Shown: positions 1 through 40,508 of the stretch, one piece after another
Position numbering within the stretch: position 1 is the first letter of the stretch
Layout of the letters: every line of letters starts with the position of its first letter
NCBI RefSeq assembly: GCF_042453785.1
Contig: NC_091677.1
Location: 33,401,001 to 33,465,000 of the forward strand
Reading direction: 5' to 3'
DNA from: Malus domestica
Lineage: Eukaryota; Streptophyta; Magnoliopsida; Rosales; Rosaceae
DNA: 64,000 bases
Notes under the pieces: model-generated
Told to the model about the DNA's origin: nothing
The model's database searches: none
Seen by the model: the letters and a program-made list of their open reading frames with translations, nothing else
Translations under genes and position numbers: made by a program

Positions 1-2121
1 AAGCAGCTGCCATAACCCCTTGGGACCAAAATTTCTTTGGTACATTCATTTGTAGCATTAGTGCTCTTGTTTTTTCAAGTAAGTCACAGTTTTTGCGTTC
101 GGCTACACCATTTTGTTGAGGTGTGCCAACACAACTTGTTTGATGCATGATGCCATGAGTGCTTAAATATTGTTTCATGATATGGGACATATATTCGGTG
201 CCATTGTCAGACCTTAAGGTTTGAATTTGAGAGGAGAAATGGTTTTTAACAAGGTTATGAAAGTCCTTAAATACTTCCATAACTTCATTCTTAGACTTTA
301 GAAGATACAACCACGTGACTCAAGAGAAATCATCAACAAAGATCACAAAATACTTATAACCATTAAAAGATTCACTAGTTGGTCCCCATACATCTGAATG
401 AACTAGTTTAAAACACTTACTAGCCCTGGACAAGGAAAAGTTAAAAGATAATCTAGTGGCCTTAGACAAGTGGCATGTTTCACATGAAATAGCATCCTTC
501 CCTAAGTTTGGAAATAAAGTTGACAAAATGGGTGGAGAATGGTGAGCTAAACGTTGATGCCACAATTGATTATCTTGAATGAGATTGAACTTGGCTTGGA
601 ATCCTCTGGGATTGCTTTTTGATATGTAATAGAGACCTTCTAAATAAAACCCTTCACCAATCGTCTTCTTGGTGGCACAATCCTAAAAGATGACATTGTG
701 AGGAGAAAATATAGCTAAGCAATTCAAGGTATTTGTGATCTTTCCCACAGATAGAAGTTGAAATGGGAAGGAAGGTACATACAAAGCCATTGATTCAATT
801 TCATCTGACATTATTTTTATTTTTTCCTTTCCTAAAACCTTTACACTTTCACCATTTGCAATTGAAACTTGGGAAGGATTAGTGAATTTTTCAAACTTTT
901 GAGACTTAGACACATGGTTAGTCATATGATCTGTGGCACCCGAATCTACAACCCAAAAATCATGCAACATATTTATTTTAAGAGCAGTTTTAAAGGCTTT
1001 CATGATACCTTGCATGTTCTCTTGGGGTACGGGTTTCGTGTCTGCCAAGAAACCCGCAAACTTGCCGAGCAATGTCGTCGTGTTCCCTTTTCCTATGCTG
1101 TCTGCACGGTCAATTCCAGCCTCTCCTTTCTTGCCTTGAATGTAAGACATAAACTCATTCATGAGTTCAGTTGGATTCGCTGTGAAGTTCTTGAATTGAT
1201 CAGACCCATTAGAGTTGGAGGCAGACGCATGATTTGCTCGATGTGTAGTACGATTCACCCTTTGTAAACCCTTGTTGTCCTTCATGAAGTCAGGCTTTAA
1301 TTCTGGGTGTAAAATCCAGCATGTGTCTTTAACATGACCTATATTGTTGCAGTGTTGACACTTCAAGTTCGAATGTTTTCCTTTGTACTTTCTCTCGTTG
1401 GTTAGATAGACCCTAGCCTCAGGTACACTGGCCATTATACCCATGTTCATGACTTTCCTCCTTACTTCTTCACGTTGGATTGTTGCACATACACTGGTGA
1501 AGGAAGTTCAGTGTTCATGAGTATGTGACATCGTAAATCTTCATACGTTGAATCGAGACTGGACAAGAGGCGAAATATCTTGTCTTCTTCTGCTTTCTTT
1601 CGTAGCAATGCTGCATCGGTTGTATGAGGGCGATAAATTTCCAACTCATTCCACATGTTTTTCATGCTTCCTAGGAGTTGCACAAACGGCTTGCCGTCTT
1701 GTTGCAGATCGGAGATGTCCTTCTTTAATTGGAAAACCCTTGCAGCATTGTTCTGGCTGTCATACATTTCGTTGACCGCCTCCCATAGCTGGTATGAAGA
1801 TTCAGAGTAACTGAATATTTCAGTTAATTTCCGTTCCATGGAATTCAGGAGCCATGACATAACTAGCTGATCCTTGTTAAGCCAGGATTCATAGGTTGGT
1901 GAGGAAGCATCAGGTATTTTGATGCTTCCATTTATGAACCCTAACTTGGACCTTCCACATAGAGCCAGAGGCACTGCTCTCGACCAAGGCAAGTAATTAA
2001 ACTCATTCAACACGACTGAGCTTAATCTTTGATTTGGGTTGACATCCACCTCATGCACATTCATGGAGGAAATCACATGTGCACTTTCAGCTTCTAATCC
2101 TAACGAATTGTCTTCGGTCAT
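1..2121 (-). pseudogene. copia gag-pol polyprotein, broken
   Basis: Gag starts at 2121 and has a UBN2/Retrotran_gag-type domain. Near 1480 a one-base frameshift ends the gag frame at 1462; the other frame carries on through a CCHC knuckle (C-x2-C-x4-H-x4-C, about 1355-1310) and the protease motif DSGATDHM (about 940). An in-frame TAG at 685-683 interrupts the frame just before the pre-integrase domain (motif WHQRLAHH, about 560), and a TGA at 322-320 interrupts the integrase after VDDFS. Downstream, the frame still shows RSDNGTEY and the PQQNGVAER region typical of a copia integrase core. Reverse transcriptase and RNase H would lie left of the window. Two stops and one frameshift indicate an old, inactive copy. 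Confidence 0.85.
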
Positions 2122-5310: not shown

Positions 5311-8165
5311 CTAGTATATGTGTCCTCCTGATGCACTCCTGTTCCAAGACAAGTACGATATATCCCCAAGAGGCCTGCACAAAAAGGGCGAAACAATTTC
5401 AAGCACATCTCAGTAGTAGCTTGGGCATAGATACAACACTGCCGATTGTGTTCGATATATAGGGACAGTAATCCACTAAATATTGGTTTCGTAGAGGAAT
5501 TGATCCATTTTAGCAAAAAGACCAGTGTAAATTTACCGTAATTGTCTAAAATAGAATCAAGTTTTAGTTGATCATTGCAGACTGTATGACCTGTGAAATA
5601 ATTCACGTACCTTGGCTTGATCAGATAGAGAAGTAGGAATGCTAGAGCCAAGAACAAACACAGCCCACCAACAGTAAGGTATGCCACGCCTAGTAGATAA
5701 TTCTTTCCGCCAATCCAGCTTGCAGTTGAAAGTACCAACTTCTTATTGCCACGGAAGCTGTAGGTGTTATAATTATTCTCTATTGTCACAGTTACTACAG
5801 CATCGGCTTCAAGGTCCACTTCTATTCTCCCGTACAGTTTTCTGAAAGTTGGCAATGCTGCAGTTCGCATCCAAACCATAAGATCTTCTTGTTCACTCAG
5901 CTGTTGATCGCAGAACAAGAAAAGGATATTAATTTAAAGCAACAAAATAAGGATGGCAAACAAGGGGAACAAAAGACAGAAAGTAGGTGAGAAGATTTAC
6001 AGGTATGCTAGAATTCAGTTTTGCTCCTCCAATCAAACCCTCGCTCTGAAAATTCTTAGGATAGACGTCTGAGCCAAATTTGTTCTTTTGGTCACTTTTC
6101 CATGTGATGTCCTTTTTGCTGACTCCTAGTTGTTTGTTATTCACTGAAAACTTGTATGTGTCGTTAAACAAACTCCATGCAACGAGACCACACGGAACAA
6201 TTACACCCTTTGTTGTATAGCGTTCAGGAGCACAGTCATCTGTTTTATTTTCATTGGACTTGCTCCGCAATTGCTTGTCGCTTCTACTTTTAACATATCT
6301 GGAAACAATAATAAACATACTACATAAGAAACAGAATCATAGTATTTTAGAAATTCAGAACTAGAGGGATAAGGGGAGAGGGGGTCGGTGGGGGATGACG
6401 TTTTATAGTGTGGCCTTTTCAAGTTCCTAATAAAAGTTTTCTAAAATTCCTGTAATAGAAATGCTACACATATAAAATGCTACAGAAATGATGTCCCAAG
6501 TAAACTGACAACTTCATTTTTCCATCTAAATAAATTCTACACACAAATGTAGGCATCATCATCTCTACATATACTCTGATTAGACAGAGTAGCACCACGA
6601 ATCAGGTGGCAGGTGAGTGTTTTAACTTGTCGAACATACCCTCAAGAATAACCTACACTGGACAGAAATGATTTGGTTTTCCTTTTAGTTTCAGATAACA
6701 ATTACAGTTCATCATTCGCATTTACGGGTATGTATCCACATATTGCAGGAAAATTTGACTACCTATGGAAATTGTCTGTAAGGGGACCTCATGTTTATTT
6801 TCAGATGTTTGGTGCACAGTACTGGCAAAGAGAAACAGAGGTTTCATGCCCCTTCCATGAATGTTTTATATCAAACAGCCATGTTCATGTCCATGCCATA
6901 TATTCCATACGAAAAAAAATGATAGTTGACAAGAAAATTTTTACATACCGGCGATGATTCTGATAGAAGTGATCAAGCTGGTAGTAAATGTAAACAGGAG
7001 ATTTCATTTGTTTCGGAATCTGAAAAACCACCAGTAAACGCACATTATCAGAAGTATGTCTTATCAGCCAAGAAAAGCAGATAAAGACTTTGCAAAATTA
7101 GCCTAAACATGACACTGGCTGAGGATCGTACTTACAGTGAGTCTCCTAATGCATGTCTTGTTAGTTTTACTACTCTGAATATATGCAAGCATATTATCCG
7201 CATATTTAAGAGGAATGCAATCTTTGTCATAGTGGTGGACGACTTCCACCACCTGCATGTTAAACAAGGCAAAGTTTAGTTTCATGCTCAAGAATAATCA
7301 GCCGCCACTGTCCAAACTTCACGATAAGCACTACATAAAGGATGTGAAGATATAATACACGCTCTGATGCAAATAAGGAAGCAAGTCCAATTGGTATAAA
7401 GACAATGCCGATGGCGACAAATATTAAAATGACCTGAAATCCAAAAAGGAAACACATTTAGAAACCAAAACACATAACACTGAAGCAAAATCTGCAACTG
7501 AAAAAAAAATAAATAAATAAATAACAAAATGCAGTGTAACCTATACCGACGCTGGTGTTAAAATTGGTTTGCAAGCTGGAAGCTCTTGCTGTGTGAACTT
7601 GGAATCTGTAATGCATCATAGCATGCACCAAGCATATTACTTTCGTTAGAATAACGCTTTAACACCATCCCAAAGGGACTGGATTATGCCCAATGAAAAT
7701 CTAACTGCATCGACTTTTATCTGTTTTTATATGTTTTCATGAATATATAGAAAATATGTTGCTGGATTCCTAGAAGAAAAGGTTGTGGTTTCTTCATAAA
7801 CCAAATAAATTACCCAAGTGGATAGAACCCTCCTTTTTAACCCATTGCATCCCATCTTCGTACCCTCCCACTTTCCCCTAGTTTAGATGAATTTAGTGCT
7901 AGATTATTCTATCGTATGTCAAATAATTACCAAATAAAGCACAATGAAGAAATAAAACATCCACATTCAAGCGTCCAAATAAAAGTTAAGCCGAAAAAAA
8001 CGATGGGAAAATGAAAAGTAAACCAAATTACATAAACAGAGACATGCATTCATGCTACACAAAGGGAGAATGAAACAAAAGGGAGTTAGAAAACGAACAT
8101 TTGGGTTTTCTGGATTTCTTTTTGGTAGAGGAGGTTGGATTTGAGGCTCCATCTTTTGCTTCCAT
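5311..8165 (-). CDS. ALIS: ALA-interacting subunit (CDC50/LEM3 family)
   Basis: CDC50-family proteins are the beta subunits of P4-ATPase phospholipid flippases; they are needed for ER exit and activity of the ALA ATPases. Eight exons in minus order: 8165-8099, 7605-7547, 7433-7359, 7252-7136, 7019-6949, 6298-6001, 5900-5611, 5374-5311. All junctions keep frame and give 346 residues, close to the plant ALIS length of about 350. Visible features are a Lys/Arg-rich cytosolic N terminus (KKKSRKPKYSKF), TM1 at about 43-63, a large exoplasmic loop with paired cysteines and N-x-T sites (for example NDTYKF), the conserved block with LVAWSLFND and WMRTAALPTFRKLYG, and TM2 at about 298-322. The tail (LSWNRSASGG) matches plant ALIS1-like members. 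The ATG at 8165 is chosen because it precedes the basic region and splices in frame. No lesion was seen. Confidence 0.93.
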
Positions 8166-8587
8166 CTCCACGATCCCCTCCCTCTACAATGCCACTATTA
8201 TTCACACAACAAAATTTGATAAATTGAGGAAAATGGAAACAACCCTTTTGAATTCGACCAAAGAAATAAGAACCCTTTTGGAAATTTGGCAACTTTCTTT
8301 GTTCTACTGCAAATTTGGAAGCATGGGAGGATCAAAGTTTTTTCTTTTTGTTCGTTAATCTGAAATCCCACTTACCACTTCTTTTTCTTTTTTGATATTT
8401 TTGTGCTTTTTTTTGGGTAGTTGATTGGTGATTTGGTGTGGAAGGTTGTTAGGAAAGACAATGGAACGAAGGATCACATGTGTGCAGCGTGTGCATTTTG
8501 GTTGGTTTTTGTTTGATTTGGCAGGAGCGCAACAACCGGTCTTGCATCTCCTAAATCCCGACCTAGTCGTCCTACCAGTCGTATGTT
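8166..8587. promoter_or_regulatory. ALIS 5' flank, cut short by the duplication edge
   Basis: Sequence upstream of the ALIS start codon, including its presumed 5' UTR and proximal promoter. The repeated SUS unit begins at 8588, only 423 bp from the ALIS ATG. Bases beyond that point are shared with sequence downstream of the other SUS copies. No clear TATA box could be assigned. Confidence 0.35.
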
Positions 8588-8593
8588 TATTCT

Positions 8594-10910
8594 TAGACAC
8601 TCTCCCTTTTCTTTTCTTTTTTTCGGTTGACAACGGGACATACGTTTAAAAAAAATAAATTATATAAGAATATAACGATACTATGACACTTTATTTATAT
8701 CTGCAACTAGGACGACAAAAAAAAGGAGTTTGCTAAAAAAAGATTGGACCCAAACTGCATGACAAATCCAAACGAGCCAAATCATCATCAACAAAATTCT
8801 TTTCACGATAAATATGACAAGTTTCATAAGACCAAGTTTGGCGCATAGAGGCACGAAAATTCAATTCTAAATTTTCCAGATGATGATTATCCACTTTTGC
8901 ATTTAAAATCAATTATACTGTGAGTAGAGAATCTGATTACACCATAATCTTCTTAATTTCTTCCATGCAAATTGCAGCCTAATAATGTGACACGCATTAT
9001 CTGACCTCGACCATTACACAAAAGCCAAAAACCCATGCTGCCGACTAGTTTATGAGGACTGCATTGAGAGGTTGATCACTCTCTTTTTATCCTTTTTTTT
9101 CTTGTCTTTAACTTATCACTTTTAATTTACTTTATATTTATTTTTGGTTGGATTAAACACCAGAATGATTATCAGAGATTTGATTTCCGTTATTTTGATT
9201 ACCAAGTACCAGATGATTCATATGTTTATTTATCATTTGATTTGATATCAAACACATCTATTTAATCTTCGTCATTGATATCAATCAAAGGGTGAGTGAC
9301 CATGTACTCTTTAGTCACCTAGTGAACAAAGAAACATTTTTGTTTCATATTTTCTCTTTATTTCTTTGTACTTATGTTATAGTTTCTAATCATAAGATTT
9401 AATAAATCAACCATAAACAAATAACAACATATGAGAGGTGGAGGAGAAAATATAATATAGTGAAAATCATAACCCCTATTCCACTAGTAAGACTGTCGGA
9501 GCATGACATGCTGAGCATATGATTTGAACAAGGATTATCTCCCTTATTTTTTCCTTCTCTTTTCTCCTCTTGTTTGAACGCTCAAGATTTCATCTTTGGA
9601 GAAAGAGGAAAAAAAAACAAAGAGTGAGAGAGAGAGAGAAGAAGAAGAAGAAACTATGAGAGGAAGTGAGGGAGGAGAGGAAAAAAGGGAAGGAGAGAAC
9701 CCCCGATAGTTATAGAGATTAAGGAGAGAGTGTGCTTAAAAAGTAGAGTAATGTTATTCATACCATATTTTTATACCATATTTTCATACCACCTTAGGTG
9801 ACATCTGATGTGGACTGCCACATCATTTGAAAATTTTGCAAAAGCCAAGGAAAAGAAGGAGAAAGACTCGTCGTATACCACAATTATCATTTAATTAACT
9901 AGTTTTTCTTAATTATTAGTTTATTAAATAATGAACTAAATTTAAAAATCTGATTAATTAAATGATGTGGCTGTCCACAAATGCCACCTAAGGTGGTATG
10001 AAAATGTAGTACAAAAACATGGTATGAATAACATTACTCTAAAAAGAAGAGATTGTTAATTATAAGTACTTTTAATATTTAAAATTAAAATTGATCGATG
10101 TGAGCAGGACAAATTGGTATTACAATATCTCAATATTTTTAATACATTGATTGAATTGGATTAAATTGTTATGGCAGATGAATTGAAGAACTGAAAATGG
10201 TATAATAATTTAGTCAGAAAGTTTAATTAATCACCATGTAGTGTCATTGAGTAAATCTTAGATGTGGATTACACTAGTTAAGTAGGGCAGTGTTATTTCC
10301 CTCCATTTTTTTATTTCACCGAGTTCAAATCCTACTCCCTCTAGATTATACTAAACTAGAAAATATCGTCTTGTAAAAAAAAAAAAATATTGAGTTCATC
10401 GTGCATAAAATCACAAAGTGTAAATGAACCAACACCGAACTATTATGTTGAAAATATGAATTGAAAGCCTCACGAACTGTAAATTTGGTATAATTTTATT
10501 ACATAGAAACAAACTTTCATGCTTCAATGGTTATGCAACAATAATTCTTCTTTGCAGATGAATAATAGGGAGTTAATGTATAGGAAACAGAAGAGGCAGT
10601 ATTGCAGTTGGGTAGCTCAAATGGCAATCCTCGATCAAGCTCCCTTTATTTGACCTTAACTTCCAAACAACCTGAAATTATGCAGTGAAGAACTTTTTTC
10701 AGTTTATGCTGGCTTTAAGGAAAACATTGAAAACAAGCCGTTTGTGACGATCTTACTCTTTACCTTTGCAATAGAGACTGTGAGCGCCTTGTGCTGCACA
10801 TCAATTATTTGTTGTTAGTTTTGGATGAAGAGTACAATGTGATTAGAGAAATACGAGAGGTCATGTTAACAGATGCATTTTAGAACGATAAACATGCATT
10901 TAAGACGTGT
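8594..10910. other. Spacer downstream of SUS-A; no gene
   Basis: Non-coding spacer homologous to 14625-16610 and 20714-22725. It has a GA-rich purine tract (about 9595-9700) and a MITE at 9744-10041. The part nearest SUS-A (about 10490-10910) probably holds its 3' UTR. No coding frame was seen. Confidence 0.6.
9744..10041. mobile_element. MITE present only in unit A (~298 bp)
   Basis: Terminal inverted repeats of about 20 bp (TAGAGTAATGTTATTCATAC and its complement) with a second inner inverted block around CCACCTTAGGTG / CCACCTAAGGTGG. Flanks share a short A-rich duplication (AAAAG). Units B (about 15757) and C (about 21887) have the uninterrupted empty site at the same position, so the insertion happened after the duplication. 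Confidence 0.8.
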
Positions 10911-13900
10911 TCATAAAGTTTCGTTGCTCAGGTTAACATGCCTTGATGTGGTTTGTGGTTGTTCAGGTTCATCACGTGGGACAGGCACATTCTTCACCTG
11001 CAACAATACCGATTAAAGTTAGGGTCGAAGTCTCGAGCTTAATAGAATGAGAAATAGATATGTGATGTATCCTATGTATAAGCATAATCTGTAACATACC
11101 AGGTTCCTATATTGGAGATTAAAGAACATCTGGATGTATCTTTGCTTTGCCTGTTTCTGCTCTTTGTTCAACTGCCTCCAGAAAGTATAAGTGCTTCCCA
11201 TGTTCAACACCTTGTTTGCATATATCTTCCAAGTGTAGCTACAAAGTTTTGATAACTTGTTTTAAATTCCATGGGAAATGATGTTGGTTTTTAAGCAAAC
11301 AAGTACGGATGCAGAGGTTGTGTGTTTACCATTCGTATATGCGCTGCAAGCCTGCTTTGGAAAATCTGTCCCAGTATGCTGCATCAGTCTTGGAGTTCTC
11401 AAAGAAATCAGCGATTTTTTTGCTTGCTTCATCACCGTTGTTAGGATCAATATGGAAACCAGAGACCCCATCAACGATGATTTCAGCCGGGCCTCCTTGG
11501 TTGATTGCAAAGGTGGGCAATCAACGATGATTTCTTCCGGTCTACTAGAAATCCACTGTTCAAGAAAATGGTTCAGGTTGACGTTAGATTACTTTTGATC
11601 AGCATTTGAATTCTAAAAGAATGATTTGCTAGTCCAGGACTTACAGATGTTCACTGCTATCCTCTTTACTAAACAGTAGTTCTTCAATGGCAGGATAGAA
11701 TGAAGTGAGCCGTTTCTGCTTGTCTGAGTAGGGGAAATATACAGACTGATCTGCCCCAGGAGCGGCAATGTTGAATTTGGGGTCAAATACATTGATGCCA
11801 GAAACAACTCTACAGAGCCCCGGGAGTGTAAATGCAGTATGACTTTCGTATTGTCCTGGTCTGTCCTTGCTGCAAAACAACATCCAAGTAATTGCAATGA
11901 CAAAATCATTTGGTAAGGGTGTCGAATGTATGAATGCTGGTTAATTTTGCTAACCTTCCTGCAATTTCCTGGTATGTGCTTGCAATGACAAAATCTGTAG
12001 CATTCATTGAGATTGTGTCAGCAAGAAATTGGCATGAGAAGTGATACTTGGGATCTAACTCCTTCCAGTTGATGTCTGAATCTTCGTACTTGGTCTTCTC
12101 CAAAGCATGAGCAATAGTTGCCTAGTTTTCACACGCTACGGATTAGTAAATACAAAGTGGGACAAAAATGTGTTACGGTTGTATCTATAATATAAATTAA
12201 CAGTGACCTGAGTTATCCCAAGTTTATTAGCCATGAGAGAAGCCACCAAATTGCCATCTGTGTAGTTTCCAATAATAAGATCCGGCTTTCCTTCCATCAG
12301 GTTGAGAATTTTGGCCGTAGCATCCTAGTAGTTTGAAACAAATGGAACAATTATTTTAGAGCAGAAAGTACATAAGGAACAAAATCAATAATTGAGCACT
12401 CTAAAAGTATGAATTTAAATATCGACGGAAAACATGCCTGTGTAAACAACTCAAGATAGGGATAGATGTCAAAACGAGAAACCCAACGGCGCAGGATACC
12501 CTTTTCTGTCCTAAATGGCACCCTAAGGATGTTAGAGTACTTGGTGCCATTGATTGGTTCCAACTCCTGGTTGCACTTAGTTCCCCTTGCTTCGGGTATG
12601 AGTCTTGTCACCTATTGTAGCCAACAACTGTAGTTAGATAATGCTAAATAAACCGAACTACCTTTCAACATCAAAGCAAATCGTCCATAGTTGTATATGA
12701 AACACACCACAAGAATTTGAGGCTTCACAGTAAGTCCTTGTTGCTTAATTCTCAGAGTCAATTCTTCCTCCATAGCTTTCACTTGATCCAGAATGTAAAC
12801 CACCTGTTTTGAATAGCAGAGTTCAAAAAATTTCGTCTCAGTAACAAATTCGATTTGCAAGGAGACTTAGCATATCGGATACAGTATTCAAATTTATACC
12901 TGCCCGCCTGTGTCTGGTAAGCCAAGAACATCTGCTTGGCCAAAGTAGCCATGGGGAGAGAATATTACGACATTGAATATTGTGGGAAGCCTACTGAAAA
13001 ACCTATCCATGTTCAACGGGTCTGGAGCTTGAAGTACTTCCAAAAGTATTTTCATGGTCTCCTTTGTTCTTTCTGCAGTGTCTCCCCACCCCTTCTCAAA
13101 GCCCCACTCCTTAAAACTGTAAATGACATTCGGTTTCAGATTGCAAGTTACATCACATGATTCACCGGCAGATAGAACATGAGATGAAGAGTCACCTTAG
13201 TTCAAAATTTTGGAACGGTGTGTCCTTAGGGAGATCTGAGAGGTACACTTCCGTTACAATCAGTGCCGCCTGAAGCTTCGAAGCCGTGTTGAGGGTCTCA
13301 TTTAGAATAAGTTGCTGTAAATTTAAAAACACAAACTATGTTTAAGACCTTATCATTAGAATGAAATTTGAATTTCTCTGCATCAAATTTTATTTTTTGT
13401 AGAATTAAATTGTTGTGATTCCCATACTTCTCCCTGATGATTTAGTGAAAGTAAGTAATCCGCAAGGGGTTGTGCATTCTCCAGTTTTCCAGCTAGCCTT
13501 GAAGTGGTGAACTTGGTAACATAATCGATTCCATTTCCGACCGAGGAAGATAGAGTCAAGTGAGGAGTAGAGAAATCAATTGCTCTAAAATCCACCTCCA
13601 ATACATGTTCATCATTCGACCTGCAATGAAAAGCATATGGGGGTTAGGCCGGTTGGTGATTAGCGAAGGTAGTGTGCTCATCCTCGTAGATTTGAGTAGT
13701 TTAGAATATCGTGTTGTAAAAAAGAAAAACTATGAGAAGGAAAAAACATGTACCATTTCTCATCATATAAAGCTTCTTTGTATTTCAAGAAGTCTCGGAC
13801 AGTGATGGCCTCAACTGAGAGATCCTCAGAGCTGACCTTAACGAATTCCCAATATCCTGGATTTGGTCTTATTGAAAAGACAACATGTGGAGGAATAACA

Positions 13901-14374
13901 ACAGCTTCCTGCGGATATTAGGTAAATATCTCATTAAGTCAAAAGTAAAACCAATAACTTATCGTTTTAACGAAAATTCTATGATGCTTTGGAGTATCTT
14001 GTACCTTTGAGTTTTTAACCATTAAATTTTAGTTATTGTATTTTTAATTAACTAACGGTCTAACAGTTAAAAATTCTTGTTAGTCCCCCAAAATGAAAGA
14101 ATATATATATATATATATAAAGAAGTGTTTAATTAGAAACCTGAGTTGAACACAATATATAGCCAAGAACACCCCCCAAAACTTGGGTTCTTTCAGCCTT
14201 GTCATCTATGACTGTCTCCATTTCACTCATTAAATGGTGAAGCTTCATTATCCTTCTTCCTTTCTCGATGTACATAGCGAAGCACCGCTTCATGTGGTAA
14301 CGGCTCTGCCTCAGGGCGTCCGGCATGGTTTCAGCTATGGAATCGGAGCGTTTGACGGCCGCTGCAGAAGCCAT
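10911..14374 (-). pseudogene. SUS: Sucrose synthase copy A, catalytic exon deleted
   Basis: Sucrose synthase cleaves sucrose with UDP to UDP-glucose and fructose in the cytosol. Exons (minus): 14374-14141, 13908-13754, 13620-13428, 13314-13196, 13116-12900, 12803-12708, 12611-12438, 12324-12208, 12121-11955, 11869-11645, 11555-11330, 11238-11100, 10997-10911. All other exons align with copies B and C without a break, but exon 11 is 226 nt instead of 567: a 341-bp net deletion between 11520 and 11535. This removes the glycosyltransferase block with the Arg/Lys pair ([10 protein letters not shown]) and the E-x7-E motif (EAFGLTVIE), shifts the frame and brings a TGA at 11485-11483. The expected product would be about 589 residues without UDP-binding catalytic residues. 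Residues 1-78 match B except for A/E at position 15 and M/K in the RCFA-YIEKG stretch. Transcription may persist, since the TATA region remains. Confidence 0.9.
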
Positions 14375-14467
14375 TTTTGTGTAAAATATATTTCTTTATA
14401 AAGAGGCAAAGGTTTCAAATGCTTAATAGATGAAGCAGTTTGAGGTTTGCTCAGCTTATGTTTCTGC

Positions 14468-14474
14468 ATTTATA
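14468..14474 (-). promoter_or_regulatory. TATA box of SUS-A
   Basis: The minus strand reads CCTATAAATGC, about 95 bp upstream of the ATG at 14374. The motif is conserved in all three copies. Only about 245 bp separate the ATG from the repeat junction at 14619. Confidence 0.55.
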
Positions 14475-14624
14475 GGCGGCTTTCGGAATTCATTACGTAC
14501 GATGTATGCGATGCGGCTGGCTTGTTCATTGTTGCAGATTGCTTTTGATTTCGTCAAGCGCTTTAGAAATCTGAATATTTTTTGCAAAAGAAAAGAATGT
14601 GATCTCTGTAAGTGAAGATATTCT

Positions 14625-16610
14625 TAGACACTCTCCCTTTTCTTTTCTTTTTTTCGGTTGACAACGGGGCATACGTTTTAAAAATATAAATTATATAAGA
14701 CTTTAACAATACTATGAAACTTTAGCTATATCTGCAACTATGATGACAAAAAAAAAGGAATTTGCTAAAAAAAGAATCGACCCAAACTGCATGACAAACC
14801 CAAACAAGCCAAATCATCACCAACAAAATTCTTTTCATGATAAATATGACCAAGTTTTGCGCATATAGGCATGAAAATTCAATACTAAACTTTCTAGATG
14901 GTGATTATCCACCTTTACATTTAAAAATAATTATATTGTAAGTGGAGAATTTGATTCCACCATAATCTTTTTAATTCCATTCTTCCATACAAATTGCAGC
15001 CTAATAATATAACACATATAATCTGACCGCGACCAAGATTAGCACAAAAGCCAAAAACCCATGATGCCGACTAGTTTATGAGGACTGCATTGAGAGGTTG
15101 ATCACTCTCTTTTTATCCTTTTTTTCCTGTCTTTAACTTATCACTTTTAATTTACTTTATATTTATTTTGCAGTTGGATTAAACCCCAGAATGATTATCA
15201 GACTTGATTTCCGTTATTTTGATTACCAAGTACCAAATGATTCATATGTTTATTTATCATTTAATTTGATATCAAACACATCTATTTAATCTCCGTCATT
15301 GATATCAAATCAAGGGGTAAGTGACCATGTACTCCTTAGTCACCTAGTGAACAAAGAAACATTTTTGTTTCGTATTTTCTCTTTATTTCTTTGTACTTTC
15401 GTTATAGTTTCTAATCATAAGATTTAATAAATCAACCGTGAACAAATAACAACATATGAGAGGAGGAGGAGAAAAATTAATACAGTGAAAATCATAACCC
15501 CTATTCCACTAGTGGGACTGTCAGAGCATGACATGCTTAGCATATGATTTGAACAAAGATTATCTCCTTTCTTTTTTCCTTCTCTTTTCTCTTGTTTGAA
15601 CACTCAAGATTTCATCTTTGGAGAAAGAGGAAAAAAAAACACAAAGAGAGAAAGAGAGAAGAAGAAAAAATTGTGCGAGAAAGTGAGGGAGGAAAGGAAA
15701 AAAGGGAGGGAGAGAATCCCGATAGTTATAGAGATTAAGGAGAGAGAGTGCTTAAAAAGAGGAGATTGTTAATTATACGTACTTTTAATATTTAAAACTA
15801 AAATTGATCGATGTGAGCATGACAAATTGGTATTACAATATCCCATACACTGGTTGAATTGGATTAAATTGTTATGGCAGACGAATTGAAGAACTGAAAA
15901 TAGTATAATATTTTAGTTAGAAAGTTTAATTAATCACCATGTAGTGTCATTGAGTACATCTTAGATGTGGATTACACTAGTTGAGTAGGGCAATGTTACG
16001 TTTGTTTATTTCACCAAGTTCAAATCCTACTCCCTTTAAATTAAACTAAATTAGAAAATATCGTCTTGTAAAATAAAATAAAAAAATATTACTGAGTTCA
16101 TCGTGCATAAAATCACAAAGTATATGAACCAACACCGAACCGTTAGGTTGAAAATATGAATTGAAAGCCTCACAAACTGTAAATTTGCTATAATTTTATT
16201 ACATAGAAACAAACTTTCATGCTTCAATGGTTATGCAACAATAATTCTTCTTTGCAGATGAATAATAGGGAGTTAATGTATAGGAAACAGAAGAGGCAGT
16301 ATTGCAGTTGGGTAACTCAAATGGCAATCCTCGATCAAGCTCCCTTTATTTGACCTTAACTTCCAAACAACCTGAAATTATGCAGGGAAGAACTTTTTTC
16401 AGTTTATGCTGGCTTTAAGGAAAAGATTGAAAACAAGCCGTTTGTGGCGATCTTACTCTTTACCTTTGCAATAGAGACTGTGAGCGCCTTGTGCTGCACA
16501 TCAATTATTTGTTGTTAGTTTTGGATGAAGAGTACAATGTGATTAGAGAAATAAGAGAGGTCATGTTAACAGATGCATTTTAGAACGATAAACATGCATT
16601 TAAGACGTGT
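14625..16610. other. Spacer downstream of SUS-B; no gene
   Basis: Unit B counterpart of the unit A spacer. It lacks the unit A MITE and shows the empty site near 15757. It is AT-rich with a purine-rich tract near 15625-15720. It also now lies directly upstream of the SUS-A promoter. No open frame with coding character was seen. Confidence 0.6.
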
Positions 16611-19600
16611 TCATAAAGTTTCGTTGCTCAGGTTAACATGCCTTGATGTGGTTTGTGGTTGTTCAGGTTCATCACGTGGGACAGGCACATTCTTCACCTG
16701 CAACAATACCGATTAAAGTTAGGGTCGAAGTCTCGAGCTTAATAGAATGAGAAATAGATATGTGATGTATCCTATGTATAAGCATAATCTGTAACATACC
16801 AGGTTCCTATATTGGAGATTAAAGAACATCTGGATGTATCTTTGCTTTGCCTGTTTCTGCTCTTTGTTCAACTGCCTCCAGAAAGTATAAGTGCTTCCCA
16901 TGTTCAACACCTTGTTTGCATATATCTTCCAAGTGTAGCTACAAAGTTTTGATAACTTGTTTTAAATTCCATGGGAAATGATGTTGGTTTTTAAGCAAAC
17001 AAGTACGGATGCAGAGGTTGTGTGTTTACCATTCGTATATGCGCTGCAAGCCTGCTTTGGAAAATCTGTCCCAGTATGCTGCATCAGTCTTGGAGTTCTC
17101 AAAGAAATCAGCGATTTTTTTGCTTGCTTCATCACCGTTGTTAGGATCAATATGGAAACCAGAGACCCCATCAACGATGATTTCAGCCGGGCCTCCTTGG
17201 TTGGTTGCAAAGGTGGGCAATCCACAGTTCATTGCCTCAATGACAGTCAGACCGAAAGCTTCATACAGGGCAGGTTGCACAAAAGCTCCCCTTGTGTCAG
17301 CAATGCAACGGTAGAGCTCTCCATTTCGGTTCCTATCAGTCTGTGCTGCTATCCATCTGATCTGACCCCTGAGTTGGTACTTCTCTATCAGTGTATGCAT
17401 CTTCTTTATTTCAGCGATTTCTTCCCTATCTTTTGATTTTGAAGGGTCAAAGAATCCACCAACTACCACAAGGTTAACCAAATTTCTCAGCCTCTTGTTC
17501 TTCCCGTACCACTCAACCAACCCGGTAATGTTTTTAACAATATCCAGCCTTGCCATTGAGAAGATGATAGGTTTCTTCCGGTCTACTAGAAATCCACTGT
17601 TCAAGAAAATGGTTCAGGTTGACGTTAGATTACTTTTGACCAGCATTTGAATTCTAAAAGAATGATTTGCTAGTCCAGGACTTACAGATGTTCACTGTTA
17701 TCCTCTTTACTAAACAGTAGTTCTTCAATGGCAGGATAGAATGAAGTGAGCCGCTTCTGCTTGTCTGAGTAGGGGAAATATACAGACTGATCTGCCCCAG
17801 GAGCAGCAATGTTGAATTTGGGGTCAAATACATTGATGCCAGAAACAACTCTACAGAGCCCCGGGAGTGTAAATGCAGTATGACTTTCGTATTGTCCTGG
17901 TCTGTCTTTGCTGCAAAACAACATCCAAGTACATTATGGTGTAAACTGTAATGTAATCATTTGGTAAGGGTGTCGAATATATGAATGCTGGTTAATTTTG
18001 CTAACCTTCCTGCAATTTCCTGGTATGTGCTTGCAATGACAAAATCTGTAGCATTCATTGAGATTGTGTCAGCAAGAAATTGGCATGAGAAGTGATACTT
18101 GGGATCTAACTCCTTCCAGTTGATGTCTGAATCTTCGTACTTGGTCTTCTCCAAAGCATGAGCAATAGTTGCCTAGTTTTCACACGCTACGGATTAGTAA
18201 ATACAAAGTGGGACAAAAATGTGTTACGGTTGTATCTATAATATAAATTAACAGTGACCTGAGTTATCCCAAGTTTATTAGCCATGAGAGAAGCCACCAA
18301 ATTGCCATCTGTGTAGTTTCCAATAATAAGATCCGGCTTTCCTTCCATCAGGTTGAGAATTTTGGCCGTAGCATCCTAGTAGTTTGAAACAAATGGAACA
18401 ATTATTTTAGAGCAGAAAGTACATAAGGAACAAAATCAATAATTGAGCACTCTAAAAGTATGAATTTAAATATCGACGGAAAACATGCCTGTGTAAACAA
18501 CTCAAGATAGGGATAGATGTCAAAACGAGAAACCCAACGGCGCAGGATACCCTTTTCTGTCCTAAATGGCACCCTAAGGATGTTAGAGTACTTGGTGCCA
18601 TTGATTGGTTCCAACTCCTGGTTGCACTTAGTTCCCCTTGCTTCGGGTATGAGTCTTGTCACCTATTGTAGCCAACAACTGTAGTTAGATAATGCTAAAT
18701 AAACCGAACTACCTTTCAACATCAAAGCAAATCGTCCATAGTTGTATATGAAACACACCACAAGAATTTGAGGCTTCACAGTAAGTCCTTGTTGCTTAAT
18801 TCTCAGAGTCAATTCTTCCTCCATAGCTTTCACTTGATCCAGAATGTAAACCACCTGTTTTGAATAGCAGAGTTCAAAAAATTTCGTCTCAGTAACAAAT
18901 TCGATTTGCAAGGAGACTTAGCATATCGGATACAGTATTCAAATTTATACCTGCCCGCCTGTGTCTGGTAAGCCAAGAACATCTGCTTGGCCAAAGTAAC
19001 CATGGGGAGAGAATATTACGACATTGAATATTGTGGGAAGCCTACTGAAAAACCTATCCATGTTCAACGGGTCTGGAGCTTGAAGTACTTCCGAAAGTAT
19101 TTTCATGGTCTCCTTTGTTCTTTCTGCAGTGTCTCCCCACCCCTTCTCAAAGCCCCACTCCTTAAAACTGTAAATGACATTCGGTTTCAGATTGCAAGTT
19201 ACATCACATGATTCACCGGCAGATAGAACATGAGATGAAGAGTCACCTTAGTTCAAAATTTTGGAACGGTGTGTCCTTAGGGAGCGCTGAGAGGTACACT
19301 TCCGTTACAATCAGTGCCGCCTGAAGCTTTGAAGCCGTGTTGAGGGTCTCATTTAGAATAAGTTGCTGTAAATTCAAAAACGCATAAACTAAGTTTAAGA
19401 CCTTATCATTAGAATGAAATTTGAATTTCTCTGCATCAAATTTTATTTTTTGTAGAATTAAATTGCTGTGATTCCCATACTTCTTCTTCATGATTTAGTG
19501 AAAGTAAGTAATCCACAAGGGGTTGTGCATTCTCCAGTTTTCCAGCTAGCCTTGAAGTGGTGAACTTGGTAACATATTCGATTCCATTTCCGACCGAGGA

Positions 19601-20476
19601 AGATAGAGTCAATTGAGGAGTAGAGAAATCAATTGCTCTAAAATCCACCTCCAATACATGTTCATCATTTGACCTGCAATGAAAAGCATATGGGGGTTAG
19701 GCCGGTTGGTGATTAGCGAAGGTAGTGTGCTCATCATCATCCCTTGCACCCAAAATCAAATCTCGCTCCTCGTAGATTTGAGTAGTTTAGAATATCGTGT
19801 TGTAAAATAGAAACACTATAAGAAGGAAAAAACATGTACCATTTCTCATCATATAAAGCTTCTTTGTGTTTCAAGAAGTCTCGGACAGTGATGGCCTCAA
19901 CTGAGAGATCCTCAGAGCTGACCTTAACAAATTCCCAATATCCTGGATTTGGTCTTATTGAAAAGACAACATGCGGAGGAATAACAACAGCTTCCTGCGG
20001 ATATTAGGTAAATATCTCATTAAGTCAAAAGCAAAACCAATAATTTATCATTTTAACGAAAATTCTATGATGCTTTGGAGTATCTTATACCCTTGAGTTT
20101 TTAACCATTAAATTTTAGTCATTGTATTTTTAATTAACTAACGGTCTAACAGTTAAAAACTAACGGTCTAGCAGTTAAAAATTCTTGTTAGTCCCCCAAA
20201 ATGAAATAATATATATATATAAAGAAGTATTTAATTAGAAACCTGAGTTGAACACAATATATAGCCAAGAACACCCCCCAAAACTTGGGTTCTTTCAGCC
20301 TTGTCATCTATGACTGTCTCCATTTCACTCATCAAATGGTGAAGCTTCATTATCCTTCTTCCTTTCTCGATGTACTTAGCGAAGCACCGCTTCATGTGGT
20401 ACCGGCTCTGCCTCAGGGCGTCCGGCATGGTATCAGCTATGGAATCGGAGCGTTTGACGGCCGCTGCAGAAGCCAT
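16611..20476 (-). CDS. SUS: Sucrose synthase copy B, intact
   Basis: Thirteen exons (minus): 20476-20243, 19994-19840, 19673-19481, 19365-19247, 19167-18951, 18854-18759, 18662-18489, 18375-18259, 18172-18006, 17910-17686, 17596-17030, 16938-16800, 16697-16611. They total 2490 nt, 829 aa, near the family's ~805-840. The N terminus has a phosphosite-like stretch (VKRSDSIAD). DTGGQ ends at residue 306. R582 and K587 lie in [10 protein letters not shown], and E678/E686 form the E-x7-E of the GT4 (GT-B) domain; all expected catalytic residues are present. The N-terminal sequence resembles the SUS5/6/7-type clade more than SUS1, but that is a judgement by eye. Exon 7 ends at a GC donor. Compared with copy C, nine codons are missing near the C terminus. 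The promoter is cut at 20708, about 230 bp upstream. Confidence 0.92.
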
Positions 20477-20569
20477 TTTTGTGTAAAATATATTTCTTTA
20501 TAAAGAGGCAAAGGTTTCAAATGCTTAAAAGATGAAGCAGTTTGAGGTTTGCTCTGCTTATGTTTCTGC

Positions 20570-20576
20570 ATTTATA
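20570..20576 (-). promoter_or_regulatory. TATA box of SUS-B
   Basis: Minus-strand CCTATAAATGC about 95 bp upstream of the ATG at 20476, as in the other two copies. A short deletion relative to copies A and C lies just upstream, near 20608. Confidence 0.55.
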
Positions 20577-20713
20577 GGCGGCTTTCGGAATTCATTACGT
20601 ACGATGTATGTTGTTCATTGTTGCAGATTGCTTTTGGTTTCGTCAAGCGCTTTAGAAATCTGAATATTTTTTGCAAAAGAAAAGAATGTGATCTCTGTAA
20701 GTGAAGATATTCT

Positions 20714-22725
20714 TAGACACTCTCCCTTTTCTTTTCTTTTTTTCGGTTGACAACGGGGCATACGTTTTAAAAATATAAATTATATAAGACTGTAACAATA
20801 CTCTCAGAATTTAGCTATATTTGCAACTATGACGACAAAAAAAAGGAATTTGCTAAAAAAAGAATGGACCCAAACTGCATGACAAACCCAAACAAGCAAA
20901 ATCATCGCCAACAAAATTCTTTTTACGATAAATATGACAAGTTTCATATGACCAAGTTTGGTGCATATAGGCATGAAAATTCAATACTAAACTTTCTAGA
21001 TGGTGATTATCCACTTTTGCATTTAAAAATAATTATATTGTAAGTGGAGAATTTGATTCCACCATAATCTTTTTAATTCCATTCTTCCATGCAAATTGCA
21101 GCCTAATAATATAACACATATAATCTGACCTCAACCAAGATTAGCACAAAAGCCAAAAACCCATGATGTCGACTAGTTTATGAGGACTGCATTGAGAGGT
21201 TGATCACTCTCTTTTTATCCTTTTTTTCCTGTCTTTAACTTATCACTTTTAATTTACTTTATATTTATTTTGCAGTTGGATTAAACACTAGAATGATTAT
21301 CAGATTTGATTTCCGTTATTTTGATTACCAAGTACCAGATGAGTCATATGTTTATTTATTATTTGATTTGATATCAAACACATCTATTTAATCTCCGTCA
21401 TTGATATCAAATCAAGGGGTGAGTGACCATGTACTCCTTAGTTACCTAGTGAACAAAGAAACATTTTTGTTTCGTATTTTCTCTTTATTTCTCTGTACTT
21501 ATTTTCTCTTTATTTCTTTGTACTTTTGTTATAGTTTCTAATCATAAGATTTAATAAATCAACCGCGAACAAATAACAACATATGAGCGGTGGAAGAGAA
21601 AAATTAATACAGTGAAAATCATAACCCCTATTCCACTAGTGGGATTGTCGGAGCATGAAATGCTTTGCATATGATTTGAACAAGGATTATCTCCTTTCTT
21701 TTTTCCTTCTCTTTTCTCTTGTTTAAACGCTCAAGATTTCATCTTTGGAGAAAGAGAAAAAAAAACACAAAGAGAGACAGAGAGAGAAGAAGAAAAAAAA
21801 CTGTGCCAGGAAGTGAGGGAGGAGAGGAAAAAAAGGAGGGAGAGAATCCCCGATAGTTATAGAGATTAAGGAGAGAGAGTGCTTAAAAATGAGATTGTTA
21901 ATTATACGTACTTTTAATATTTAAAATTAAAATTGATCAATGTGAGCATGACAAATTGGTATTGCAATATCCCATACACTGGTTGAATTGGATTAAATTG
22001 TTATGGCAGACGAATTGAAGAACTAAAAATAGTATAATAATTTAGTTAGAAAGTTTAATTAATCACCATGTAGTGTCATTGAGTACATCTTAGATGTGGA
22101 TTACACTAGTTGAGTAGGGCAATGTTACGTTTTTTTATTTCACCAAGTTCAAATCCTACTCCCTTTAAATTAAACTAAATTAGAAAATATCGTCTTGTAA
22201 AATAAATAAATAAAATATTACTGAGTTCATCGTGCATAAAATCACAAAGTGTAAATGAACCAACACCGAACCGTTAGGTTGAAAATATGAATTGAAAGCC
22301 TCACAAACTGTAAATTTGGTATAATTTTATTACATAAAAACAAACTTTCATGCTTCAATGGTTATGCAACAATAATTCTTCTTTGCAAATGAATAATAGG
22401 GAGTCAATGTATAATTGCAGTTGGGTAGCTCAAATGGCAATCCTCGATCAAGCTCCCTTTATTTGACCTTAACTTCCAAACAACCTGAAATTATGCAGGG
22501 AAGATTTTTTTTTTCAGTTTATGCTGGCTTTAGGGAAAAGATTGAAAACAAGCCGTTTATGGCGATCTTACTCCTTACCTTTGCAATCGAGACTGTGAGC
22601 GCCTTGAGCTGCACATCAATTATTTGTTGTTAGTTTTGGATGAACAATACAATGTGATTAGAGAAATAAGAGAGGTCATGTTAACGGATGCATTTTAGAA
22701 CGGTAAGCATGCATTGAAGACGTGT
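20714..22725. other. Spacer downstream of SUS-C; no gene
   Basis: Unit C counterpart of the spacers in A and B. It contains a local duplication of a TTTCTCTTTATTTCT-type segment near 21475-21520. It now forms the upstream neighbour of SUS-B. No gene was seen. Confidence 0.6.
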
Positions 22726-25700
22726 TCATAAAGTTTCGTTGCTTAGGTTAACATGCCTTAATGTGGTCTGTGGTTTGGAAGTTGCCTTTGGCGCAGCTGG
22801 TTGCTCAGGTTCATCACTTGAGACAGGTACATTCTTCACCTGCAACAATGCCGATTAAAGTTAGGGTCGAAATCTCGAGCTTAATAGAATGAGAAATAGA
22901 TACGGGGTGCATCCTATGTATAAGCATAATCTGTAACATACCAAGTTCTTATATTGGAGATTAAAGAACATCTGGATGTATCTTTGCTTTGCCTGTTTCT
23001 GCTCTTTGTTCAACTGCCTCCAGAAAGTATAAGTGCTCCCCATGTTCAACACCTTGTTTGCATATATCTTCCAAGTGTAGCTACAAAGTTTTGATAACTT
23101 GTTTTAAGTTCCATGGGAAAAGATGTTGGTTTTTAAGCAAACAAGTATGGATGCAGAGGTTGTGTGTTTACCATTCGTATATGCGCTGCAAGCCTGCTTT
23201 GGAAAATCTGTCCCAGTATGCTGCATCAGTCTTAGAGTTCTCGAAGAAATCAGCGATTTTGTTGCTTGCTTCATCACCGTTGTTAGGATCAATATGGAAA
23301 CCAGAGACCCCATCAATGATGATTTCAGCCGGGCCTCCTTGGTTGGTTGCAAAGGTGGGCAATCCACAGTTCATTGCCTCAATGACAGTCAGACCGAAAG
23401 CTTCATACAGGGCAGGTTGCACAAAAGCTCCCCTTGTGTCAGCAATGCAACGGTAGAGCTCTCCATTTCGGTTCCTATCAGTCTGTGCTGCTATCCATCT
23501 GATCTGACCCCTGAGTTGGTACTTCTCTATCAGTGTATGCATCTTTTTTATTTCAGCGATTTCTTCTCTATCTTTTGACTTTGAAGGGTCAAAGAATCCA
23601 CCAACTACCACAAGATTAACCAAATTTCTCAGCCTCTTGTTCTTCCCGTACCACTCAACCAACCCGGTAATGTTTTTAACAATATCCAGCCTTGCCATTG
23701 AGAAGATGATAGGTTTCTTCCGGTCTACTAGAAATCCACTGTTCAAGAAAATGGTTCAGGTTGACGTTAGATTACTTTTGATCAGCATTTGAATTCTAAA
23801 AGAATGATTTGCTAGTCCAGGACTTACAGATGTTCACTGTTATCCTCTTTACTAAACAGTAGTTCTTCAATGGCAGGATAGAATGAAGTGAGCCGTTTCT
23901 GCTTGTCTGAGTAGGGGAAATATACAGACTGATCTGCCCCAGGAGCGGCAATGTTGAATTTGGGGTCAAATACATTGATGCCAGAAACAACTCTACAGAG
24001 CCCCGGGAGTGTAAATGCAGTATGACTTTCGTATTGTCCTGGTCTGTCTTTGCTGCAAAACAACATCCAAGTACATTATGGTGTAAACTGTAATGTAATC
24101 ATTTGGTAAGGGTGTCGAATATATGAATGCTGGTTAATTTTGCTAACCTTCCTGCAATTTCCTGGTATGTGCTTGCAATGACAAAATCTGTAGCATTCAT
24201 TGAGATTGTGTCAGCAAGAAATTGGCATGAGAAGTGATACTTGGGATCTAACTCCTTCCAGTTGATGTCTGAATTTTCGTACTTGGTCTTCTCCAAAGCA
24301 TGAGCAATAGTTGCCTGGTTTTAACGCGCTACGGGTTAGTAAATACAAAGTGGGAGAAAAATGTGTTACGGTTGTATCTATAAGATAAATTAACAGTGAC
24401 CTGAGTTATCCCAAGTTTATTAGCCATGAGAGACGCCACCAAATTGCCATCTGTGTAGTTTCCAATAATAAGATCCGGCTTTCCTTCCATCAGGTCGAGG
24501 ATTTTGGCAGTAGCATCCTAGTAGTTTGAAACAAATGGAACAATTATTTTAGAACAGAAAGTACGTAAGGAACAAATAAATAATTGAGCACTCTAAAAGT
24601 ATGAAAATAAATATCGACGGAAAACATGCCTGTGTAAACAACTCAAGATAGGGATAGATGTCAAAACGAGAAACCCAACGGCGCAGGATACCCTTTTCTG
24701 TCCTAAATGGCACCCTAAGGATGTTAGAGTACTTGGTGCCATAGATTGGTTCCAACTCCTGGTTGCACTTAGTTCCCCTTGCTTCGGGTATGAGTCTTGT
24801 CACCTATTGTAGCCAGTGGTTAGATAATGCTAAATAAACCGAACTACCTTCCAACTTCCTAGTAAATCGTCCATAGTTGTATATGAAACATACCACAAGA
24901 ATTTGAGGCTTCACAGTAAGTCCTTGTTGCTTAATTCTCAGAGTCAATTCTTCCTCCATAGCTTTCACTTGATCCAGAATGTAAACTACCTGTTTTCGAT
25001 AGCAGATTCAAAAAATTTCGTCTCAGTAACGAATTCCATTTGCAAAGAGACTTAGCATATCGGATGTAGTATTCAAATTAATACCTGCCCGCCTGTGTCT
25101 GGTAAGCCAAGAACATCTGCTTGGCCAAAGTAGCCATGGGGAGAGAATATTACAACATTGAATATTATGGGAAGCCTACTGAAAAACCTATCCATGTTCA
25201 ACGGGTCTGGAGCTTGAAGTACTTCTGAAAGTATTTTCATTGTCTCCTTTGTTCTTTCTGCAGTGTCTCCCCACCCCTTCTCAAAGCCCCACTCCTTAAA
25301 CCTGTAAATGACGCTCGGTTTTAGATTGCAAGTTACATTACATGACAGCGGCAGATAGAACATGAGAGGAAGAGTCACCTTAGCTCAAAATTTTGGAATG
25401 GTGTGTCCTTAGGAAGTGTTGAGAGGTACACTTCTGTTACAATCAGAGCCGCCTGAAGCTTCGAAGCTGTGTTGAGGGTCTCATTTAGAATAAGTTGCTG
25501 TAAATTCAAAATCACATAAACTATGTTTCAGACCTTATCATTAGAATGAAATTTGAATTCTCCTCATCAAATTTTATTTTTTGTAGAATTAAATTGCTGT
25601 GATTCCCATACTTCTCCTTGATGGTTTAGTGAAAGTAAATAATCCACAAGGGGTTGTGCATTCTCCAGTTTTCCAGCTAGCTTTGAAGTGGTGAACTTGG

Positions 25701-26597
25701 TAACATATTCGATTCCATTTCCGATCGAGGAAGATAGAGTCAAGTGAGGAGTAGAGAAATCAATTGCTCTAAAATCCACCTCCAATACATGTTCGTCATT
25801 TGACCTGCAATGAAAAGCATACGGGGGGTTAGGCCGGTTGGTAGTTAGCAAAGGTAGTGTGTTCATCGTCATCCCTTGCACCCAAAATCAAATCTCGCTC
25901 CTCGTAGATTTGAGTAGTTTAGAATATCGTGTTGTGAAAAAGAAAAAAACTTTAAGAAGGGAAAAAACATGTACCATTTCTCATCATATAAGGCTTCTTT
26001 GTATTTCAAGAAGTCTCGGACAGTGATAGCCTCAACTGAGAGATCCTCAGAGCTGACCTTAACGAATTCCCAATATCCTGGATTTAGTCTTATTGAAAAG
26101 ACAACATGTGGAGGAACAACAACAGCTTCCTGTGGATTATATTAAGTAAACATCTCATCAAGTCAAAAGTAAAACCAATAATTATTTGTTTAACGAAAAT
26201 TCTATGATGCTCTGGAGTATCCTATACCCTAGAGTTTTTAACCATTAAATTTTAGTCATTGTATTTTTAATTAACTAATGGTCTAACAGTTAAAAATTCT
26301 AGTTAGTCCCCCAAAATGAAAGAACATATATATATATATATAAAGAAGTGTTTAATTAGAAACCTGAGTTGAACACAATATATAGCCAAGAACACCCCCC
26401 AAAACTTGGGTTCTTTCAGCCTTGTCATCGATGACTGTCTCCATTTCACTCATCAAATGGTGAAGCTTCATGATCCTTCTTCCTTGCTCGATGTACTTTG
26501 CAAAGCACCGCTTCATGTGGTATCGGCTCTGCCTCAGGGCGTCCGGCATGGTATCAGCTATGGAATCGGAGCGTTTGATGGCCGCTGCAGAAGCCAT
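22726..26597 (-). CDS. SUS: Sucrose synthase copy C, intact, original promoter
   Basis: Thirteen exons (minus): 26597-26364, 26129-25975, 25804-25612, 25497-25379, 25301-25085, 24989-24894, 24803-24630, 24517-24401, 24314-24148, 24052-23828, 23738-23172, 23080-22942, 22839-22726. They total 2517 nt, 838 aa. Same GT4 layout as copy B: DTGGQ, the Arg/Lys pair and E-x7-E are all present. The last exon is 114 nt and keeps a nine-residue segment (PAAPKATSK region) missing from A and B. The exon 4/5 junction codes Arg here but Ser in A and B. The sequence beyond 26847 is unique, so this copy probably retains the ancestral regulatory region. The intron after exon 7 starts with GC. Likely cytosolic; the SUS III-type clade assignment is tentative. 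Confidence 0.93.
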
Positions 26598-26690
26598 TTT
26601 TGTGTAAAATATATTTGTTTTTAAAGAGGCAAAGGTTTCAAATGCTTAAAAGATGAAGCAGTTTGAGGGTTGCTCAGCTCATTTTTCTGC

Positions 26691-26697
26691 ATTTATA
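26691..26697 (-). promoter_or_regulatory. TATA box of SUS-C
   Basis: Minus-strand CCTATAAATGC about 95 bp upstream of the ATG at 26597. It is the same motif as in copies A and B, but followed upstream by unique sequence past 26847. Confidence 0.55.
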
Positions 26698-26847
26698 GGC
26701 GGCTTTCGGAATTCATTACGTACGATGTATGCGATGCATCTGGCTTGTTCATTGTTGCAGATTGCTTTTGGTTTCGTCAAGCGCTTTAGAAATCTGAACA
26801 TTTTTTGCAAAAGGAAAGAATGTGATTTCTGTAAGTGAAGATATTCT

Positions 26848-39780: not shown

Positions 39781-39799
39781 AGAGAAGTGAGAGAGACGA

Positions 39800-39838
39800 T
39801 TCTTCTTCTTCTTCTTCTTCTTCTTCTTCTTCTTCTTT
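39800..39838 (+). repeat. (TTC)n microsatellite in the PAO 5' region
   Basis: Thirteen consecutive TTC units, followed by a GA-rich stretch at 39857-39897. Located about 320 bp upstream of the PAO start codon, probably in the promoter or 5' UTR. Confidence 0.9.
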
Positions 39839-40155
39839 CCGTTTCGAATTGTGATATAGAGAGAGGAGAGAGAGAAGAGAGAGAGAGAGAGAGAGCATAT
39901 GTGACATGATAAATGACATGAGCTGGTTTGAGAAGCTGCGTTGTAGTTGTTCTTCTTCAAATCTCAGCCGCATAATTGCAGGCCTTCTAATATTCATTCT
40001 TTGTCATTCTTTCCAATTAGTCTCCAAGATTCCTATACACCCTGAAAATTGAAACCCACAATTCCAAATTCCAAATTTTGTTCGAATTAATCATTCAATT
40101 GAAAAATTCAATTCAATTCAATTCTTTTCGTTTCCCAATTTTCTTTTCAATTCCA

Positions 40156-40443: not shown

Positions 40444-40508
<65 letters not shown>

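Follow-up and report, generated by a model that had tools for sequence, protein, structure and literature searches.

A three-unit sucrose synthase array in apple with a repeated join, a mosaic middle unit and one broken gene

A 64,000-nt stretch of the apple (Malus domestica) genome, contig 17 positions 33401001-33465000 (hereafter the window), contains a direct tandem array of three sucrose synthase (SUS) units arranged head-to-tail and 6,031, 6,089 and 6,140 bp long (U1, U2 and U3). The homeologous locus on contig 9 is single-copy. Comparison of the two loci and of the three units with one another makes it probable, in our judgement, that the array was built by one microhomology join followed by an unequal crossover, and that a deletion in U1 and gene conversion between U1 and U2 complete its history.

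Structure of the array and its joins

The units, edges and joins are as follows.

8588..14618, unit 1 (U1)
14619..20707, unit 2 (U2), the middle unit, a putative B/A hybrid (see below)
20708..26847, unit 3 (U3), with the ancestral flank still in place on its right-hand (upstream) side
8588..8593, TATTCT at the left edge, through which colinearity with contig 9 continues
26842..26847, TATTCT at the right edge, spanned by the alignment with contig 9
14617..14631, plus strand, derived join 1, GATATTCTTAGACAC
20706..20720, plus strand, derived join 2, identical to join 1

The original prediction, made from the letters of the window, had described a three-unit tandem array with a repeated join, and this description is exact to the base: GATATTCTTAGACAC occurs twice in the window (at 14617 and 20706) and not once in 100 shuffles. 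The right part of the join, TATTCTTAGACAC, is found at 8588, 14619 and 20708 and the left part, GATATTCT, at 14617, 20706 and 26840, such that the two halves match the left and right edges of the array, respectively, as had also been claimed. The internal joins are identical and the edges unique, as expected for a tandem array produced by unequal crossing-over. Of 18 direct-repeat families, 16 have three copies in register and two have two copies. Alignment of the three units, which the original prediction had proposed as a check, gave identities over aligned bases of 96.8% (U1-U2), 94.6% (U1-U3) and 96.1% (U2-U3). In a search of the same genome with a 601-bp join probe (41 matches; 40 of 86 candidates scored), the two joins were the only full-length matches, half matches fell on the two array edges and the contig 9 gene, and the remaining matches belonged to a dispersed repeat starting near 14638.

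It is very improbable that the array is an assembly artefact made of uncollapsed haplotypes or repeated contig ends. Some stretches of U1 and U2 are indeed identical, and the array was read from a single assembly, but the units differ by 3-5% and carry private indels, a private insertion resembling a miniature inverted-repeat transposable element (MITE) and a private deletion, and the join is base-exact twice in a window that contains no N.

Ancestral state and microhomology

The sucrose synthase matches on contig 9 amount to one gene, homologous to all three units. Contig 9 carries the left flank of the array as well, in an alignment that runs through the left edge (window 8038-8603), and on its upstream side it can be aligned with the right flank as far as window 27028. 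Its sequence is TTTATTCTTAGGCACTCT where the left edge lies and ATATTCTG where the right edge lies. Since contig 9 reads through both edges, these are ancestral and the internal join is derived.

The edges have exactly 6 nt in common, TATTCT, which is all that the original prediction had allowed them, and TATTCT is also present on contig 9 at the counterparts of both edges, so that the microhomology predates the join. When 200,000 random pairs of breakpoints lying 5-6.5 kb apart were taken from the window flanks and contig 9, 0.25% of them had at least six bases in common. A 6-nt match is thus rare by chance and favours a microhomology join, whichever enzyme made it. Attribution of the first duplication to microhomology-mediated joining is therefore well supported by TATTCT at both edges and on contig 9, with the repair pathway itself remaining conjectural. 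Under this attribution, a SUS gene present once on contig 17 following the Maleae whole-genome duplication would have been tandemly duplicated by a single illegitimate join between two sites with TATTCT in common, perhaps through microhomology-mediated end joining or a template switch.

Origin of the third unit

If the resulting two-unit array, A-B, mispaired with itself, an unequal crossover roughly 0.35-0.57 kb past the stop codon would have produced A-(B/A)-B and would have copied the join unchanged. The middle unit does change ancestry within such an interval.

16037..16256, interval of U2 lying after the last shared-derived site of U2+U3 and before the first of U1+U2, candidate crossover

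We classed 354 variable columns among the three units, excluding columns gapped in any unit, and took the gene region of contig 9 as the outgroup for polarising them, by which 72 sites were shared-derived between two units. Left of 16250, all seven such sites (15843-16036) unite U2 and U3, whereas 59 of the 65 to the right unite U1 and U2, with four uniting U2 and U3 and two uniting U1 and U3 (Fisher test, left versus right, 2.8e-7). Unpolarised sites at which U1 or U3 is the odd unit (n = 299) switch at 16174-16206, and none of 2000 permutations gave as large a switch. An in-frame stretch of 27 bp in the last exon (about 22771-22797 in U3) is absent from both U1 and U2 and has a counterpart on contig 9. 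The ratio of third-copy to first-copy distance is 0.56 +/- 0.08 on the left and 0.39 +/- 0.10 on the right, values that agree within error. The middle unit is therefore of type B before and of type A after about 16.2 kb, an order that necessarily results when unit B of one chromatid crosses over with unit A of another.

Several observations weigh against so simple an origin. Six sites right of 16250 are in conflict with it, and 17213-17963 contains no U1+U2 shared-derived site where about 6.5 are expected. At 15080-15757, sites polarised with a more distant stretch of contig 9 (302 of 494 positions identical to U3) are mixed (five U2+U3, four U1+U2 and one U1+U3 among 62 variable sites), and the non-coding distances among the three units at 15240-15750 are close (6.9, 8.4 and 6.5%). 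Because its sites are mixed, this leftmost part does not decide the matter; it may be a conversion patch, perhaps an older one, or may reflect noise from the distant outgroup.

Alternatively, the third unit might have arisen by a crossover elsewhere and the U3-like left part of the middle unit by gene conversion, which the mixed leftmost sites would allow. Conversion does seem to be active at this locus: U1 and U2 differ at only 6 of 1042 non-coding bases in a core region (16250-19213 without 17213-17963) versus 19 of 741 at the right end (Fisher test, 0.0007), and they are identical over runs of 649 bp (16555-17203) and 1019 bp (17980-18998). Nevertheless, a single crossover accounts for the order seen near 16.2 kb and for distances that are compatible on its two sides, and U1 is still most often the odd unit at 14619-15750, a part that has no outgroup in the main alignment (114 sites: U1 odd at 58, U3 at 30, U2 at 23 and three states at 3). 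We consider a crossover elsewhere unlikely. The claim that the third copy came from unequal crossing-over thus stands on the hybrid middle unit around 16.2 kb and draws nothing from the mixed sites at its left end.

Less can be said for the idea of one reused breakpoint, which the original prediction had also put forward. Two independent duplications breaking at the same two sites could account for the identity of the joins, and the left edge, about 20 bp from the T-rich end of the dispersed repeat, is a possible fragile place. However, a copy of the join comes at no cost when units recombine, and a second break would leave the mosaic middle unit unexplained. We rejected true breakpoint reuse, which is superfluous if the join was copied and to which we give almost no credence; the simplest view is that the breakpoint was made once and that the second join was inherited as a copy.

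A broken gene in unit 1 and its probable homogenisation with unit 2

Each unit carries a sucrose synthase gene of 13 exons, read from the minus strand; the one in U1 is broken.

10911..14374, minus strand, sucrose synthase pseudogene of U1, in which 13 exons can be recognised and the frame breaks in exon 11 (11330-11555)
11520..11534, scar of the deletion in exon 11 of U1; 15-nt repeat of 11470-11484 in the pattern of a templated insertion
16555..18998, candidate U1-U2 conversion zone, with identical runs either side of exon 11

The reading frame of U1 ends after 589 codons. Relative to U2 and U3, its exon 11 lacks a net 341 bp, corresponding to U2 residues 575-689 and including the E-X7-E motif (678 and 686), which was accordingly not found in U1. 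Judging from the reading frame, U1 should make at most a truncated and inactive product. The 15-mer at the scar recurs 50 bp away (11470), whereas recurrence of a 15-mer within 75 bp upstream was seen at 16 of 9086 sampled window positions. U1 lost the net 341 bp of its catalytic exon at a scar carrying this locally copied 15-mer, a pattern that may reflect polymerase-theta-type repair. The statement that sucrose synthase is triplicated therefore holds for the units but not for intact genes, of which there appear to be two.

The two identical runs described above flank the exon broken in U1 and suggest that conversion later homogenised U1 and U2 around, but not across, this exon. We suggest only tentatively that such conversion is recent or ongoing and has so far not crossed the deletion, with selection or the heterology itself screening tracts exon by exon. 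If so, a functional catalytic exon would be preserved in U2 beside a pseudogene that otherwise serves as its sequence partner. Rescue of the catalytic exon of U2 by U3 was considered and rejected, given that the U1-only differences there are mostly the deletion scar and a small complex change at 11891-11903.

The present array closely resembles tandem gene arrays that have grown by unequal crossing-over after a microhomology join: its units lie head to tail, its join recurs exact to the base, its middle unit is a mosaic, its homogenisation is patchy and one member has decayed. It differs from them in nothing essential, except that here a single-copy homeologue polarises the steps. The mechanism is ordinary tandem duplication with an unusually complete record and holds no mechanistic surprise. 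As such, the locus allows the growth of a plant gene array to be read, from ancestral edges and a microhomology join through a locatable ancestry switch and homogenisation to the death of one copy.

Genes in units 2 and 3

The other two genes, and the regions upstream of all three, are as follows.

16611..20476, minus strand, sucrose synthase gene of U2; 13 exons predicted, reading frame open over all 829 aa
22726..26597, minus strand, sucrose synthase gene of U3; 13 exons predicted, reading frame open over all 838 aa
26598..27028, minus strand, region upstream of the U3 gene, which aligns with contig 9 past the edge
14375..14618, minus strand, residual upstream region of U1, 244 bp, followed by the join
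20477..20707, minus strand, residual upstream region of U2, 231 bp, followed by the join

The gene model on contig 9 encodes 834 aa. The gene models were lengthened by 3 aa after comparison with Arabidopsis SUS1, with which the U3 protein aligns over residues 8-810. Searched as the earlier, 3 aa shorter models (826 aa for U2 and 835 aa for U3), both proteins match PF24861, PF24862, PF00862 and PF00534 above the cut-off, in the domain order of plant sucrose synthase (SUS_N, EPBD, GT-B sucrose synthase, Glycos_transf_1). The E-X7-E motif described for the sucrose synthase GT-B domain in PMC6375876 is present in U2 (residues 678 and 686) and in the translation of U3. Ka/Ks (nonsynonymous to synonymous divergence) between U2 and U3 is 0.14 (exons 1-12). 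The computed masses and isoelectric points (pI) are 95.27 kDa and 6.48 for U3 and 94.38 kDa and 6.28 for U2.

Only U3 retains the ancestral upstream flank. Because 244 and 231 bp lie upstream of the ATG of U1 and U2, respectively, before the next unit begins, the control of these two genes may differ from that of U3. As predicted from these gene models, full-length enzyme should today come from two genes: U3, with the ancestral upstream flank, and U2, with a shortened one. This suggests that the contig 17 SUS locus of apple is best regarded as a pair of working genes and one pseudogene whose upstream regions differ, a point of relevance to gene models, read mapping and expression studies.

Age of the duplications

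Synonymous divergence (Ks) between U3 and the contig 9 gene is 0.227 (exons 1-12), and that for exons 1-4 is 0.128 between U1 and U3 and 0.047 between U1 and U2. With the recent duplication peak of apple reported at Ks 0.2-0.3 (PMC10623406), the first duplication is therefore younger than the whole-genome duplication. By inference from these values it would also be far older than domestication. Two SUS genes are reported on pear chromosome 17 (PMC6100409), and loquat has a tandem Group III pair, EjSUS6/EjSUS7 (PMC13287058); as described in these sources, the two pairs fit an old two-unit stage without proving it. In the latter account, the loquat Group III sucrose synthases are likewise called tandem duplicates, but they are two genes and are linked to apple Chr9 rather than Chr17, so that they are at most putative orthologues of the present units.

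Family membership

SUS matches in the genome fall on contig pairs 9/17, 3/11, 6/14, 2/15 and 13/16, the first four of which are given as chromosome pairs of a Maleae genome in PMC10623406. The position of MD15G1223500 in GDDH13 (Chr15:18,156,590; PMC8369641) is close to that of a SUS gene found here at C15:18.09 Mb. In the catalytic exon, identity to Arabidopsis SUS1 is 70-71% for U2 and U3, 83-87% for the contig 2/15 genes and 60-61% for the contig 11/13/16 genes.

The contig 17 genes, candidate members of the SUS III clade (SUS5/6/7), are probably of the SUS6/7 type, in the naming of PMC10707870, where apple MD17G1287000 is 'SUS7' and MD09G1202200 'SUS6'. The genes described there resemble those found here in having the sucrose synthase domain order and in lying on both homeologues 9 and 17, whereas at the present locus contig 17 has three units, one of them broken, and contig 9 has one. 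The same source lists SUS7 as a 95.8-kDa protein in buds with a pI of 7.52. The mass is no more than suggestive of U3 (95.27 kDa), and the pI fits neither U3 nor U2. Among the papers listed in our literature search, whose coverage did not extend to the apple SUS family paper Tong 2018, none was found to name this three-unit array. Arabidopsis sus5 sus6 mutants are reported to have reduced sieve-plate callose (PMC6375876) and SUS6 to act with PDLP6 and CALS7 (PMC11371196); a phloem role of the contig 17 SUS genes may be inferred from the shared names.

Other SUS matches also lie in close pairs, on contig 2 (7714536-7729984) and contig 13 (12541839-12581330), and are likely to be further tandem copies.

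Repeats and neighbouring sequence

Two repeats were distinguished inside the array.

9744..10041, MITE-like element, inverted at its ends, that U1 alone carries
8612..9056, dispersed repeat, old, about 445 bp long with approximate ends; U2 (about 14638-15085) and U3 carry it too, but the contig 9 locus does not

The MITE-like element (about 298 bp) has 39 other near full-length places in the genome among 40 candidates scored of 696. In six of seven re-aligned copies of the dispersed repeat, picked from loci of which eight were listed per search, a T-rich run is followed by a TTGACA-like motif and preceded by unrelated sequence. No target-site duplication at this repeat was obvious by eye. Since the T-run at the end of the repeat falls about 20 bp inside the left edge of the array rather than at the edge itself, the idea that a transposable-element end caused the duplication is not supported.

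Between the left flank and the 3' side of the gene, contig 9 has about 33 kb (34046496-34079655) where the U1 side has almost nothing (window 10096-10151), which implies either a large gain on contig 9 or a large loss on contig 17. Colinearity with contig 9 extends over window 38524-44963, where it takes in an amine oxidase exon (43757-44278), and supports the homeology of 9 and 17; beyond 44963, contig 9 matches are scattered and partly inverted. To the left of the array, two minus-strand open reading frames at window 683-2121 match copia-type gag and Pol beta-barrel domains and are fragments of a long terminal repeat retrotransposon, and a minus-strand exon at 5250-5918 matches the CDC50/LEM3 family.

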